Position numbers and translations under genes: made by a program
From: Haloarcula vallismortis ATCC 29715
Lineage (GTDB): Archaea; Halobacteriota; Halobacteria; Halobacteriales; Haloarculaceae
Length of the DNA stretch: 64,000 nt
Reading direction: 5' to 3'
Assembly (NCBI RefSeq): GCF_000337775.1
Contig: NZ_AOLQ01000040.1
Span: forward strand, 1-64,000
Notes under the pieces: model-generated
Seen by the model: the letters and a program-made list of their open reading frames with translations, nothing else
What the model was told of the DNA's origin: nothing
The model's database searches: none
In this document: one piece after another, positions 33,556 through 38,279 of the stretch
Layout of the letters: each line of letters starts with the position of its first letter
Numbering within the stretch: position 1 is the first letter of the stretch

Positions 33556-34497
33556 TCACGGCCGACGGCGGCCCGGACCGCCGGGACCGCCCGGTCCACC
33601 GGGGCCGCCTGGACCGCCGCCACCGCCGAACTGTATCTGGCCGGGCATACGGGCCTTGCCCTTGATTTTCTGGCCGTACCAGAGCCCGATGACGAGCCCG
33701 ATGAGGTGGGCGAGGTGCGCGATGTTACCGCCGAGCAGGCCGGCCCCCATCGGATTGAGCGACCCGAAGATGCTCAACAGGAAGTAAAAGCCAGTGATCG
33801 CCCATATCGGGACGGGAATCAGGAAGTACAGGTACACGCGGAGGTCAGGCTTCAGGACGGTCAGGAACGCCATGATAGCCAGCGCCGCGCCGCTGGCCCC
33901 AAGGACGCCGGCGGATGTCCCCTGTACGGTCTGGATGGCAATCTGTCCGAGGCCCGCCAGCGCCCCCGAGACGAGGAAGAAGATCGCGAACTTCTTCGAC
34001 CCGATCTGTTGCTCGACGAGCCGGCCGAAGAAGTAGATGATAATCCCGTTGCCGAGGATGTGATAGAACCCGAAGGGAGCGTGTGAGAACACCGAGGTGA
34101 CCCACGTCCAAACGTACTCGGGGTTGTTCGGATGAAGGACGAACAGCGTCTGAAACGCTTCGCTGCCCAGAGAGAGAATGACGACGTGTTCGAGGATGAA
34201 CACGATGCCCATAATCGCCAGGAACAGGTACGTGACGTTGCCCCGGAAGTACGCCAGCGGCCCGCCGGGCCCGGTGTCGACACCGAGTCGGTCGGCGACG
34301 CCGCCGCCAGAGGTCTGGCCGGTGTTTACACTCTCGTCGAACCCGCTGTCGAACACGCCGCCCGGGTCGCTCCAGTTGTCAAGTCCGGGGCAATCGTGGG
34401 CCTCGGGCAGTCTGTGTTCCGCACAGTAGGTCCCGCCACAGTGCCCACACTGGTACGGCATGTTCTCCTGCTTTCCACAGGCATCGCACTCCGACAT
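33556..34497 (-). CDS. Rhomboid intramembrane serine protease with N-terminal AN1 zinc finger
   Basis: The 313 residues start with a complete AN1 finger: C4, C7, C17, C20, C25, H28, H34 and C36 in the canonical spacing. A linker follows, then six or seven membrane spans with the catalytic serine in GASGA (S202) and the histidine in AHLIG (H264). HILGNGI marks the conserved span 2 region. The C-terminus is a run of Pro-Gly-Gly repeats before basic RRRP. This RhoII-like architecture is haloarchaeal. Substrates are membrane proteins, identity unknown. Confidence 0.92.
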   Translation of the reverse strand: MSECDACGKQENMPYQCGHCGGTYCAEHRLPEAHDCPGLDNWSDPGGVFDSGFDESVNTGQTSGGGVADRLGVDTGPGGPLAYFRGNVTYLFLAIMGIVFILEHVVILSLGSEAFQTLFVLHPNNPEYVWTWVTSVFSHAPFGFYHILGNGIIIYFFGRLVEQQIGSKKFAIFFLVSGALAGLGQIAIQTVQGTSAGVLGASGAALAIMAFLTVLKPDLRVYLYFLIPVPIWAITGFYFLLSIFGSLNPMGAGLLGGNIAHLAHLIGLVIGLWYGQKIKGKARMPGQIQFGGGGGPGGPGGPGGPGGPGRRRP

Positions 34498-34628: not shown

Positions 34629-35597
34629 CTACCCGTCGGTATCGGGATTGCTTTTAGCGTCTCGAAGCACGCCTATCCACGCCGGGTCGCCATCGTACTC
34701 AATCGACCCGCCGGACACCTCGATGGTACGCGTCTCACCGTCGGCCTGTTGCCCCTCGAACTCCGAGTGGAACGTATCGAGCTCGTCTGACTCTGCCGTT
34801 CGGAGTGACTCAGGAAGTCTGTCGCCGTCGCCTTCTGCCGTGAGGAGGGACGGGGGTTCGCCGATGAGTTCACTCTGGTCATAGCCGAAAATGTCGGCCA
34901 GCTTCTGGTTCACGTAGACAAACGCCCCGTCCTGGATGATGCAGACGCCCGCGAGCTCCTGTTCGACGAGCCGCTGATACCACGAGAGCGCGTTCCAGAA
35001 CCGCTGTTCGGTTCGGTGTTGCTCGATAGCATTCCCGATTCGGTTGGCGAGGACATCGTACGTATCTGATCGCCCTCCCTTCTGCATATAGTCCGTGACG
35101 CCCGACGCAATTGCCTCGCTGGCGATTTCCTCACTGCCCTTGCCAGTGAACAGAATAAACGGAATGTCCTGATACTGCTCGCGGACGAGTTCCAGAAACT
35201 CCAGCCCGTCGGTGTTTGGCATATCGTAATCACTGACGATACAGTCGACCTGCTCGTTCCGGAGGACCTCAAGCGCGGCGACGGCGCTGGTCTTGGTCAC
35301 GACGTTGAACTCGTCGTTGATGCGCTCGAGATACATCTCGACCAGCTCACCTACCTGTGGATCGTCGTCGACGTGTAACACCGTACACTCCTGTGACTGC
35401 GCCACTTTCGCCAGCGGAATCGGGACCTCTGTCCGCATCTCGTCGCGTCGGTCCACTGATTCGGTCCGGAGAAGCGGTGTGTGTCGCGTCGCCGCGCGTT
35501 GGCTCCCGCTGATGACTGAACTCGACAACTCGACTGTCTTGTCCCCGAGCCGCCATTGCTCCTCAGAAGCCATCTTTTCTCCCTGTGGTGCCGACAA
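34629..35597 (-). CDS. Receiver-PAS response regulator without output domain
   Basis: This 322-residue protein has a poorly conserved N-terminal stretch to about residue 70, then a receiver domain (LHVDDDPQVGELV, phospho-acceptor aspartate in IVSDYDMPNTDG, LFTGKGSEE and the lysine in DYMQKGG). A PAS domain (CIIQDGAFVYVNQKLADIFGY) follows. There is no histidine kinase or DNA-binding part after the PAS, so it probably works by protein contacts or in a phosphorelay. An alternative ATG exists at 35573. It is the gene nearest the AT-rich peptide/CHAT locus. Confidence 0.85.
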   Translation of the reverse strand: MSAPQGEKMASEEQWRLGDKTVELSSSVISGSQRAATRHTPLLRTESVDRRDEMRTEVPIPLAKVAQSQECTVLHVDDDPQVGELVEMYLERINDEFNVVTKTSAVAALEVLRNEQVDCIVSDYDMPNTDGLEFLELVREQYQDIPFILFTGKGSEEIASEAIASGVTDYMQKGGRSDTYDVLANRIGNAIEQHRTEQRFWNALSWYQRLVEQELAGVCIIQDGAFVYVNQKLADIFGYDQSELIGEPPSLLTAEGDGDRLPESLRTAESDELDTFHSEFEGQQADGETRTIEVSGGSIEYDGDPAWIGVLRDAKSNPDTDG

Positions 35598-35981
35598 AGC
35601 CGCCAGCAGGCATCCATTCGGTCAAATTGGTAGCGATTGCCGTATACATCGACCGCCCTGCGTCCGTCCCCCGGAGCGAACCAGCAGGACATATATATTC
35701 TAAACAATTATCGGCTGATTTCCATTTACACATCAATACTAGACCCTGATTATCAATTACATACCTGTCTACTAAACGCTACTGATGGGGGGTATCGCTG
35801 GGTACCTCTCGTGTGTACGCACGTCCTGTGCGTGTGCTTCTGCCCACTAAACACACGTTTCCGTCCTTGTGAGCCTTAGTTTCTAGATTTGACGTTTAAT
35901 TCTATCCTTAATACAATATATTATATGTAGGTACTTTTCAAATAAATTTAATTATCTCCCCACCATCATCGAAATTGTATC
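35598..35981. other. AT-rich gene-free stretch
   Basis: These 384 bases hold no recognised gene. G+C falls sharply (14 of 60 bases at 35881-35940). An inverted repeat ACGCAC-GTCCT-GTGCGT lies at 35817-35833, preceded by GTGT and followed by GTGC. TTTAATTA at 35947-35954 is the likely TATA box for the peptide gene, about 30 bases before its ATG. An 80-codon open frame at 35637-35879 looks like chance: unusual Cys/Tyr/Leu composition and no family resemblance. Confidence 0.5.
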
Positions 35982-36116
35982 ATGTCAGATACCACCATGC
36001 GCGAATACCTCGCAGAGCACCCGAAAATGGCCGGCGCACTGTTCACCCTCCTGATGTTACTATCTCAGGCTGGGACTGTAGCAGCTGCTAACAGTTCAAG
36101 CTATGCCGGTCCGTAG
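35982..36116 (+). CDS. 44-residue hydrophobic peptide with signal-like segment (DUF7503-like)
   Basis: The frame reads MSDTTMREYLAEHPK, then a hydrophobic helix MAGALFTLLMLLSQAG, then VAAANSSSYAGP. This looks like a signal peptide or single membrane span with an AAAN cleavage-like site and a tiny tail of about ten residues. I recognise it as resembling a family of very short haloarchaeal proteins (DUF7503) of unknown function. A TATA-like element lies at 35947-35954. It converges on the CHAT-protein gene, 78 bases stop to stop, within the same AT-rich block. Confidence 0.65.
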   Translation: MSDTTMREYLAEHPKMAGALFTLLMLLSQAGTVAAANSSSYAGP

Positions 36117-36194
36117 AGGCCACATTAAGTAGAGTCAATCAATAGTTTCGTTTCTCAGCAACGATTCATTTGCCCCCATATATGTTTGTTATTT

Positions 36195-38279
36195 TTACAA
36201 TACTTGATCAAGTGATAATGATGTACTCCAATGTAGGCCGTTTTCTGTTCGCACTGGGACTTCCTCCATATTAAGGAATCTCAACAACTCCGACTCAGAA
36301 ACACTAAATTCTCCGATAGTTCCAGAGCTGAGGTATTGCTTATCAATATTCTCGATATATGGTATAATTAAGCTCCCTAGCCCCCTATTATCTGTAGTAT
36401 ATGTTATCATATTTACAGTATACTCATTCCCTTCCGGTTCGATTTTGAGCACATTTGGTATTCCGCTTTCGGCTTGGGCTACAGTAACACTACCATCACC
36501 AACCACAATATACTGCCCCCCGAGGACACTCTCACCGCGTGCGATAGTAAGCGCCGCTCGGAGCGGGAACCCACAGTTCAACAACCGTGCGACCGTCTCA
36601 CCGATGCGAATCGCGCCGTCGTTTAGCACTTCGTTGAGCGTGACGATGCCAGCAATTGCACCTTTTTCGACGAGCGCCAATCCCTGATTGTAGGAGTTAC
36701 AGGCGTTCAGCAGGAACGTGTCGATGCCGACCGAATCAACTGTCGTCACGTCGAGCTTGCCGTCGGAGCAGACGAAGCCATCGTGCTCCGTATGGCCGAT
36801 ATAGTGGAAGAACTCAGCGTCGGTCGTGAGTACGGTCCTGAGTTCTGCCGTCGTCAGGTCGTCGTGGACCGTGACATCGAACGGCAGGTCGTCGCGGCTG
36901 CCGTACACTTCGTCGACGAGTTGTCGTTCCTCGTCCATTCGGGTGTCGTTCTGGACGACGCGAATCGTGATGTCTTCGGCGTTTGTATCGCGGTCGAGTC
37001 GGTGCTCGAACGCCGCTTTGGTCAGCTTACTCGCACCGATGGGGATGCTGTCCCCGATCCAGGCCTGTTCGAGTGAGTCCTCGGCCTGCGGTTCGACGTA
37101 GTCCGTCTCGGTTGGGGCGGTGGCGGCGTCGGAACTCGCGGCGCGGGTGATGACGTCGTCCCTGGTGAACTCGGCTTCTGCCTCCGCCGGAACACTCGCC
37201 TGTTGGAGCCGTTGCTGCTGGTGTGTCCGGACAATAGCGAGGTCGTCAACGACGTAGGGCAGTTGCTCTGCGTTCGTCGGCACCGGGTCGATGTGCGTCG
37301 TCAGCCGCCACTTCGGGATATGGTCCTCGATAACGTCGTACGGGACCTGCAGGTAGGTGGCGACTTGCTCCGCCAGCGGTTGCTGGTACAGCGACTGGAA
37401 ATCGAGGTCGACATACGGTTCGATAGCCGCTCGCTCGTGCAGGTCGATCTGGTGGAACCCCTCGGTGCGTGTGACACAATCGAGGAAGAACAGACGTTTG
37501 AGTGTGCGTCCGACCTCCGACTCGAAGCCGCGTGCGGTGTCGAGCGAGTAAGTAAACCCCGTGTCGGTCGTGAGTCGCGGCGTGGATGCGGGGACGAGCG
37601 AGGCACCGAGGTAATACGAAAGCGGTGCGGCGACGAAGACGGACGCGAGGTCGGGCGGTAGTTCGAGCGTGACACCGGTGTCCGGTCTGTCGATATCCGC
37701 CGGAATGTCGAGACTGTCACCGACCTCAATCGCCGGCGGATGGCCGCGGAGCGTCGGATAGGAGCGCTCGGGGTCGTAGGCCTTGAGCGCCGATCCGAAG
37801 GTCTCGACTGCGGCCATCACGTCTCTCGGGTTCTCGGTCGTCGTAACTGTGGCTGCGGGCCGGTCGTGCTGGGACCGAGCGCCGATGAGCACGTCCGTCG
37901 GGGCGTCGAACTCGATGCGGGTCCGGTCCGAGTCGACGGTGACCTCCATCGCGGTGTCCTCGACTCGCATGTACGTCTTGATCTGTGTCAGCGGATCAAG
38001 CACGTAGTCATCCGCCGGTAGCGTCTCCGATTCGAACTGGGCAACCTCGGCGGCTATCGCTCCGCCGTCGTCGCGGACGTACACCATGACGACCGTCGGA
38101 AGTTCGATAGCGCGGGTGCGCATCCGGACAGCGTCCCCGACCGGATACTGGAACACGTCTGTCGCCGCCTTTTTGCGCCCGATGGGGGCCGGCGTGTGTA
38201 TCCGATAGCGCTGGCGCTCGATCTGATCAATGACCGCGAGCCCGGGTCGGTCGTCCAGCGGTTCGAACGTTAGAGTCAT
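36195..38279 (-). CDS. CHAT-like caspase-family protein
   Basis: The 694-residue protein has a large N-terminal half (residues 1-415) with no domain I recognise, an acidic linker, and a C-terminal caspase/CHAT-like domain from about 425. The catalytic dyad fits H496 in FFHYIGHTEHDG and C527 in LLNACNSYNQG, followed by GAIAGIVTLNEVL. CHAT proteases often act in cell death or defence. The ATG at 38279 (MTLTFEPLDDRPG) is preferred over one 54 bases upstream. The last 110 codons or so are AT-rich, unlike the rest, and end in the AT-rich block that holds the peptide gene. Protease activity is inferred from the dyad only. Confidence 0.78.
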   Translation of the reverse strand: MTLTFEPLDDRPGLAVIDQIERQRYRIHTPAPIGRKKAATDVFQYPVGDAVRMRTRAIELPTVVMVYVRDDGGAIAAEVAQFESETLPADDYVLDPLTQIKTYMRVEDTAMEVTVDSDRTRIEFDAPTDVLIGARSQHDRPAATVTTTENPRDVMAAVETFGSALKAYDPERSYPTLRGHPPAIEVGDSLDIPADIDRPDTGVTLELPPDLASVFVAAPLSYYLGASLVPASTPRLTTDTGFTYSLDTARGFESEVGRTLKRLFFLDCVTRTEGFHQIDLHERAAIEPYVDLDFQSLYQQPLAEQVATYLQVPYDVIEDHIPKWRLTTHIDPVPTNAEQLPYVVDDLAIVRTHQQQRLQQASVPAEAEAEFTRDDVITRAASSDAATAPTETDYVEPQAEDSLEQAWIGDSIPIGASKLTKAAFEHRLDRDTNAEDITIRVVQNDTRMDEERQLVDEVYGSRDDLPFDVTVHDDLTTAELRTVLTTDAEFFHYIGHTEHDGFVCSDGKLDVTTVDSVGIDTFLLNACNSYNQGLALVEKGAIAGIVTLNEVLNDGAIRIGETVARLLNCGFPLRAALTIARGESVLGGQYIVVGDGSVTVAQAESGIPNVLKIEPEGNEYTVNMITYTTDNRGLGSLIIPYIENIDKQYLSSGTIGEFSVSESELLRFLNMEEVPVRTENGLHWSTSLSLDQVL

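Follow-up and report, generated by a model that had tools for sequence, protein, structure and literature searches.

A convergent DUF7503 peptide and caspase-fold protease gene pair as a candidate allele-matched module of haloarchaea

Related systems and the locus in Haloarcula vallismortis

In RRNPP systems (Rap-Phr, PlcR-PapR, NprR-NprX), a receptor gene adjoins the gene of a signal-peptide-like propeptide, the ligand is usually formed by the last 4-10 residues, and intragenic duplications of the propeptide are known (retrieved sections of PMC10075063). The locus studied here lies in a stretch of 64,000 nucleotides from Haloarcula vallismortis ATCC 29715 (contig NZ_AOLQ01000040.1, positions 1 to 64,000; hereafter the window) and consists of a gene for a 44-residue peptide of family DUF7503 (35982..36116, forward strand) and a gene for a 694-residue, CHAT-like caspase-fold protease (36195..38279, reverse strand); the two reading frames converge and are 78 bp apart. 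Measured against the RRNPP description in those sections, an adjacent propeptide of 10-100 aa is found here (44 aa, adjacent in 75 of 80 loci), whereas the receptor of 250-500 aa with TPR is replaced by a protein of 694 aa in which no TPR match was obtained. The pair also differs from RRNPP systems in that the putative receptor is a caspase-fold protease, the genes are convergent and the host is archaeal; export and return of the peptide are proposed.

ComQXP and Agr pherotype loci combine a constant effector part with a variable sensor domain and a variable mature peptide, and the variable block is exchanged between species. At the present locus, in contrast, no processing enzyme or kinase is seen, and a protease stands in the receptor's place. 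Csx29 (Craspase), SAVED-CHAT and the separase of separase-securin share the catalytic fold and the His/Cys dyad with the protease described here; it differs from them in having a hypervariable C-terminal domain (C-domain) and a peptide partner. No CRISPR family, including the gRAMP/Cas7-11 expected with a type III-E Craspase, was detected among the seven window neighbours scanned. In the fungal het-Q1/het-Q2 system, in which gasdermin and protease mediate allorecognition, a polymorphic protease is linked to a small membrane-associated partner; the protein families here differ, and a death phenotype is not among the known features of the haloarchaeal pair.

The open-access literature searched contained nothing on DUF7503, on haloarchaea combined with CHAT domain or on Haloferax combined with CHAT domain, most subscription papers and preprints being outside the scope of the search; nothing on the peptide-protease pair was found among the matches listed. 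No described system was found in which an allele-matched peptide partners a caspase-fold protease; the function of the pair is inferred. With a probability of about 0.55, the two genes form an allele-matched peptide and receptor-protease module of haloarchaea that carries a self or kin signal. The evidence for this reading comes from the pairing of the genes across the class and from the joint variation of their facing 3' ends.

Peptide and protease genes and their pairing

The peptide matched Pfam PF24335 (DUF7503) over profile positions 1-42 of 42 (E 1e-22; 79.9 bits against a cut-off of 27), and its best named matches were mostly in Haloarcula species. The ratio of non-synonymous to synonymous divergence (dN/dS) had a median of 0.16 in 126 pairs of related convergent peptides. 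The signal-like peptide gene put forward in an earlier note on this DNA is thus real, and a chance open reading frame (ORF) was ruled out, the product being a conserved protein. By alignment, the consensus reads M..YLA.HP[RK]M.GVLFT..LLL[ST]QAG.[VA]AA, followed by a short variable stretch and Gly-Pro (GP). Among 127 distinct peptides, the proline of HP[RK] was invariant wherever aligned, the motif [HNR]P[RKQ] occurred in 126, Gln-Ala-Gly was retained at 77-91% per residue, and A/V-x-A preceded the tail in 114 (a permissive test in an alanine-rich stretch). With its basic residue, short hydrophobic stretch and A/V-x-A site, the peptide body looks like a signal peptide. A C-terminal GP was present in 114 of 133 peptides, and the five positions preceding it had an entropy of 2.9-3.4 bits, among the highest in the peptide. 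A DNA-level signal at GP was ruled out, since Gly and Pro are each encoded in four ways and three different stops follow. The window peptide carries, in order, an HPK motif, a hydrophobic h-region, QAG, an AxA-type site, the variable tail, GP and the stop; its tail NSSSYAGP (36090..36113, forward strand) is the proposed ligand. In 18 Haloarcula loci, mean dN/dS was 0.065/0.742 for the peptide body (153 pairs) and 0.284/0.684 for the part after QAG (73 equal-length pairs), the dS values being rough since saturated dS was set to 0.

For the 694-residue protein, no Pfam or NCBIfam match was obtained at E 0.1, the Pfam CHAT profile (PF12770, gathering score 24 bits) included; on ten relatives this profile reached 20.4 bits at best. 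A sequence-profile search of the PDB with the protease gave nothing up to E 10. An AlphaFold model was built with 80 family members and had a mean pLDDT of 92.9. The top structural match of this predicted model was gingipain R (Z 20.5 over residues 323-602), and matches were also found to SAVED-CHAT (Z 18.6, residues 432-602), separase (Z 17.7, residues 332-601), DdvA (Z 16.8) and TPR-CHAT/Csx29 (Z 14.3); a Foldseek ranking was also run. By the model, the fold is clan CD, CHAT-like and caspase-type, covering residues 323-602 (36474..37313, reverse strand; the range of the gingipain alignment), and proteolytic activity is predicted. The dyad His496 (codon 36792..36794) and Cys527 (codon 36699..36701), both on the reverse strand, was found in 159 of 159 distinct homologues, which indicates that the active site is kept and bears out the caspase-like protein with intact dyad of the earlier note. 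Homologues were dropped if they scored below 100, started beyond profile position 110 or ended before 640, and the 165 remaining proteases gave 159 after removal of duplicates; 69 of these came from loci found through DUF7503, and some species are counted both as survey genomes and as named loci.

The C-domain (residues 603-694; 36198..36473, reverse strand), the proposed reader of the tail, folds alone with a predicted pLDDT of 85.4. Its best PDB matches were no better than E 0.33, a value that does not imply a new fold. Gly635 was conserved in 158 of 158 and Trp684 in 153 of 157 sequences. By eye, no signal peptide was seen in the protease. Among PADLOC defence models, none matched P0001 and P0002, the 694-residue protease included, at E 1; six other proteins gave three weak matches (14.1-19.5 bits). 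The protease occurs in 25 public plasmid records, by their names all from haloarchaeal genera. Most of these list the protein as hypothetical; the labels CHAT domain-containing and caspase family are each used once.

Across the class, DUF7503 was found in 204 of 242 genomes, usually in one copy, and the protease in 223 of 242, with one to seven matches each (at most four candidates were scored per genome). The peptide was present in 204 of the 223 protease-positive and 0 of the 19 protease-negative genomes (Fisher p 4.5e-18), the latter count being read by eye (11 genomes listed as DUF7503-negative, 8 among 18 unlisted negatives). Eighty named loci, the best 80 of 171 relatives, were found by peptide patterns alone. 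A convergent CHAT gene occurred in 75 of them, the distance between its 3' end and the peptide stop ranging from -17 to 197 bp, which rules out random placement of the peptide. Starting from the protease, a convergent DUF7503 gene was present at the 3' end in 25 of the 30 best matches, and four of the other five had a tail-repeat gene in the peptide slot, all from genus g48. The expectation that most CHAT homologues have such a peptide gene within 300 bases was thereby confirmed. Among 40 further CHAT matches, picked for looking unpaired, 39 had a convergent peptide. At least 76 of the 116 peptide places checked were peptide-CHAT pairs, and all 76 were convergent; in 15 of 133 pairs the gap was -4, the two stop codons overlapping. 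A convergent GP-ending ORF was seen at 125 of 145 CHAT 3' ends (loci selected via DUF7503 included) and at 17 of 877 other large ORFs, so that the pairing is more frequent than expected by chance. A conserved third gene was ruled out, every other family being confined to at most 17 of the 80 loci.

Individual loci departed from this arrangement. L084 and L104 had DUF7503 and no CHAT in the DNA examined, and at L081 the sequence stops 97 bases past the peptide. At L074 the CHAT gene is about 0.7 kb off, and two overlapping ORFs (L074:5021-5330) both match the DUF7503 profile. The CHAT gene of L138 lies upstream of the peptide on the same strand; L179 and L046 have CHAT and no convergent peptide. 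An apparent split of the CHAT gene in Natrialba is explained by a long linker, one open frame being present in 4 of 5 loci; L087 shows two overlapping frames.

Of 196 genomes sampled across the phylum, 28 matched the C-domain profile. Each of these was labelled as own, same genus, same family or same order, and none of the sampled genomes listed as merely of the same phylum matched. A phage- or virus-borne system was rejected, with no match in phage records and none confirmed in viral contigs. The near-universal, mostly single-copy peptide and the lack of viral copies in these collections fit a core function as well as defence.

Diverged copies were represented by 20 full-length CHATs (among L142-L172), namely the second copy of the H. 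vallismortis genome and copies from 15 genomes picked for lacking DUF7503. Six had a profile-detected peptide and four another candidate: a tail repeat at L143 and another GP-ending hydrophobic ORF at L144, L146 and L162. The 29-aa GP-ending ORF at L158 may be due to chance. The second CHAT of the H. vallismortis genome itself (L142, G000:C65:268294-269958; 33% identity) had no convergent peptide that could be found; its relatives in genus g6 are without peptide, and in the single disjoint pair from g6 the C-domain is conserved (0.83). Genome G123 (L146, L159, L162, L164, L166-L172) has 12 CHAT matches, an expansion. Peptides of the diverged G123 proteases are often longer, several of them signal-like, with Gly-Pro at or near the end, and most of the longer ones carry HPR, NPR or RPR before the hydrophobic stretch. 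At L110, L112, L127, L130 and L133 (Natronococcus, Natronorubrum and a metagenome-assembled genome of Natrialbaceae), the paired CHAT gene is accompanied, at a distance of about 0.2-1.1 kb, by a second CHAT gene of the same orientation whose own 3' end is without a peptide.

In five g48 genomes (L054, L057, L059, L061, L143), the peptide slot is occupied by a soluble repeat protein without hydrophobic segment, built from tandem units (4, 5, 7, 10 or 13 of them; for example TADGNSSGISGPM), each with Gly-Pro; the number of units differs in each genome. One unit is nearly identical to the DUF7503 tail of L050, GNMGVISGP. As the hydrophobic body is missing from these repeats, the shared element is the tail. 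A response regulator-like ORF, recognized by eye, also lies beside the pair at g48 loci.

Joint variation of the peptide tail and the protease C-domain

In 13 close Haloarcula species, protease identity, taken in steps of 40 residues, was 87-99% as far as residue 600 and 44-52% beyond it; with five more distant members included, the values were 68-94% and 41-49%. At the DNA level, a cassette comprising the peptide tail, the spacer and the C-domain coding region (36078..36497, no strand assigned) had an identity of 0.31-0.68; the protease body next to it reached 0.85-0.93, the peptide body and promoter 0.90-0.95. Seventeen close pairs were chosen by hand. Synonymous divergence was saturated in the C-domain alone in eight of these (remaining gene 0.07-0.48), raised in three (1.06-1.38) and about gene-like in six (0.15-0.77). 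Saturation beside a gene of low divergence shows replacement of the block by recombination, not slow mutation. Spare C-domain cassettes were ruled out: the matches listed in 28 genomes were all in open frames of at least 599 aa, and the two matches in the H. vallismortis genome itself both lay inside full CHAT frames. Since no spare fragments were seen, the donors are probably other cells.

Among 31 disjoint pairs with a DUF7503 partner, C-domain identity was more than 0.2 below that of the body in 21 (means over all 31: 0.57 against 0.86). Disjoint pairs without such a partner showed this drop in none of three cases (0.83 at a body identity of 0.90); two were g48 pairs with the repeat gene and one was a g6 pair with nothing.

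The tail tends to vary with the C-domain. In a set of 36 disjoint pairs drawn from many genera, C-domain identity correlated with tail identity (Spearman 0.69, p 4e-6) and not with protease body identity (Spearman -0.09); against tail identity, other protease segments gave 0.04-0.24, and the segment overlapping the C-domain 0.53. The partial correlation of tail and C-domain given the body was 0.60 over 156 pairs, a value reached in 0 of 2000 within-cluster shuffles (mean 0.27, maximum 0.545); for the N-terminal part of the peptide, the partial correlation was 0.37. Within Haloarcula, C-domain groups correspond to tail types: NSSSY[AV]GP (L032, L033), NNNIYIGP (L035, L037, L038), NNSSY[IF]GP (L036, L042, L043), NNSAYPGP (L039, L041), NNSTYIGP (L040, L062) and NNASIAGP (L065, L071). 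The nearest protease body had another tail type in 12 of 18 Haloarcula loci, and the nearest C-domain had the same tail type in 14 of 18; each of the remaining four is the sole locus of its type. At the residue level, mutual information placed columns 630-641 recurrently near the top for several tail positions, which is a hint only.

The cassette is part of an AT-rich island. GC content at 35-37 kb of the window was 0.51-0.53, with 0.58-0.69 in most of the window, so that the island noted earlier is real; the segment at 46-47 kb is likewise low (0.52). The local AT-richness stems largely from the C-domain coding region, the spacer and the region upstream of the peptide, and the C-domain coding region was AT-richer than the remaining protease gene in 152 of 159 homologues. 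The AT-rich upstream (promoter) region of the peptide gene (35898..35957, forward strand; GC 0.17) is non-coding; its mean pairwise identity in 13 Haloarcula species was 0.95, as against 0.61-0.80 in the less conserved DNA lying beyond it. Adjoining this promoter, a response regulator with PAS domain (34629-35570, reverse strand) is a candidate regulator; a rhomboid intramembrane protease fused to an AN1-type zinc finger is encoded at 33556-34497 (reverse strand).

Proposed mechanism, alternative explanations and meaning

In the proposed mechanism, the C-domain would bind the tail of its own peptide, and this binding would gate the protease. Matched recognition of the tail by the C-domain itself is probable from the sequence comparisons, and the sensor-effector or kin-recognition pair supposed in the earlier note gains from the co-variation a specificity relation. 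The convergent orientation would be kept because both specificity ends fall in one short exchangeable block, and the many specificities would be maintained by negative frequency-dependent selection. An export-and-return form of recognition is more tentative and falls somewhat short of even odds. In this form, the peptide body would be a Sec signal peptide with an AxA-type site, a tail of 8-9 residues would be released, and the cytosolic CHAT receptor would read it as a self or density signal, following the logic of Phr/PapR or ComX pherotypes. Alternatively, the tail may act as an inhibitor or be the part by which a substrate is gripped for cutting.

Several observations weigh against an allele-matched module. 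Because the tail and the C-domain are neighbours on the DNA, linkage alone could give their co-replacement and would make them change together, which is the main weakness. Mutual information showed no overall excess for C-domain columns (effective 58 sequences). Ten of the 31 disjoint partnered pairs had no strong C-domain drop, and the C-domain types of L035, L040 and L041 differ no more than moderately (identity 53-62%). There are also poorly fitting pairs: L042/L037 and L038/L036 combine a tail identity of 0.75 with C-domain identities of 0.35 and 0.38, L201/L209 combines 0.38 with 0.68, and L071/L065 and L039/L041 have identical tails with C-domain identities of 0.65 and 0.69. The tail lacks GP in 19 of 133 peptides, most of these being shortened (for example GNGGSIY). 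So invariant a body would not be expected of a generic signal peptide, and the g48 tails have no export signal. With the tail expected outside and the protease without signal peptide by eye, re-import would be needed. Finally, 10 of the 20 diverged CHATs had no convincing peptide; the generality of pairing expected earlier therefore holds for the main clade and not for all diverged copies.

Linked hypervariability without recognition, in which the tail and the C-domain hitch-hike in a recombination-prone, weakly constrained block, would account for a contiguous, AT-rich and divergent block with saturated dS, and both the missing excess of residue-level coupling and the badly fitting pairs agree with it. 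It is nevertheless improbable: the peptide body beside the tail stays frozen, the C-domain retains Gly635 and Trp684, GP persists within the variable block (114 of 133 peptides), and the C-domain is not hypervariable in the three disjoint pairs without DUF7503 partner. An enzyme-substrate relation, about equally improbable, would have a C-domain exosite grip the tail while the protease cuts the peptide, for instance at HP[RK], and frees a membrane-active helix as a gasdermin-like death effector. Gingipain and separase cleave after Arg or Lys, the Arg specificity of gingipain R being given in the title of its structure entry. That these are the nearest solved folds, that the dyad is intact and that [HNR]P[RKQ] precedes the hydrophobic stretch in 126 of 127 distinct peptides all agree with such cleavage, although the positive-inside rule also accounts for the basic residue, the g48 proteins keep GP tails without a membrane stretch, and cleavage and toxicity are predicted only.

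Two further explanations are less probable still. As an export-failure sentinel, the pair would have its tail exported as a rule; upon failure of Sec or of the membrane, the tail would stay inside, bind the C-domain and fire the protease, and viral decoys would drive the variation. The strong constancy of the signal-like body, whose attached tail is expected to be read inside, and a protease without signal peptide by eye are in keeping with this, but the g48 tails, having no export signal, should always be cytosolic, and no viral copies were found in the phage records and viral contigs searched. A toxin-immunity or toxin-antitoxin pair, with the peptide neutralising the protease, agrees with the allele matching and with a locus of two genes only (neighbour families recur in at most 17 of 80 loci). 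Typical antitoxins are unlike the constant signal-like body of this peptide, however; the pair is near-universal in the class, and several second CHAT copies are partnerless.

The allele-matched module could extend to an archaeal allorecognition or pherotype system, in which the variable C-domain reads a matched self peptide and a heritable, exchangeable identity type controls proteolysis. We regard this extension as rather unlikely; its outputs would be growth arrest, death or, in haloarchaeal mating, the acceptance of a fusion partner. The orphan caspase-like activity of haloarchaea may stem from such an allorecognition protease. Haloferax volcanii has a strong caspase-like activity for which, in the retrieved sections of PMC3615174, no protein had been identified at the time of writing and identification was called for. 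Since the H. volcanii control genome carries DUF7503 and Haloferax massiliensis (L132) carries the pair, the CHAT family is a candidate for this activity; the link is a lead only and does not imply Asp-specificity. Neither 'caspase' nor 'CHAT' occurs in the main text of a mating transcriptome paper (PMC7749143), and in the retrieved part of a 2025 H. volcanii review (PMC12186497) 'caspase' was absent and the two matches to 'chat' were author names.

If the proposed reading is true, Archaea would have a locus of peptide specificity (pherotype or kin-type) in which a caspase-fold protease reads a matched peptide, and caspase-like proteases would be linked to self-recognition. The function of DUF7503 and the origin of the caspase-like activity of PMC3615174 become testable, as does a peptide component in haloarchaeal cell-cell recognition during mating (PMC5496957).

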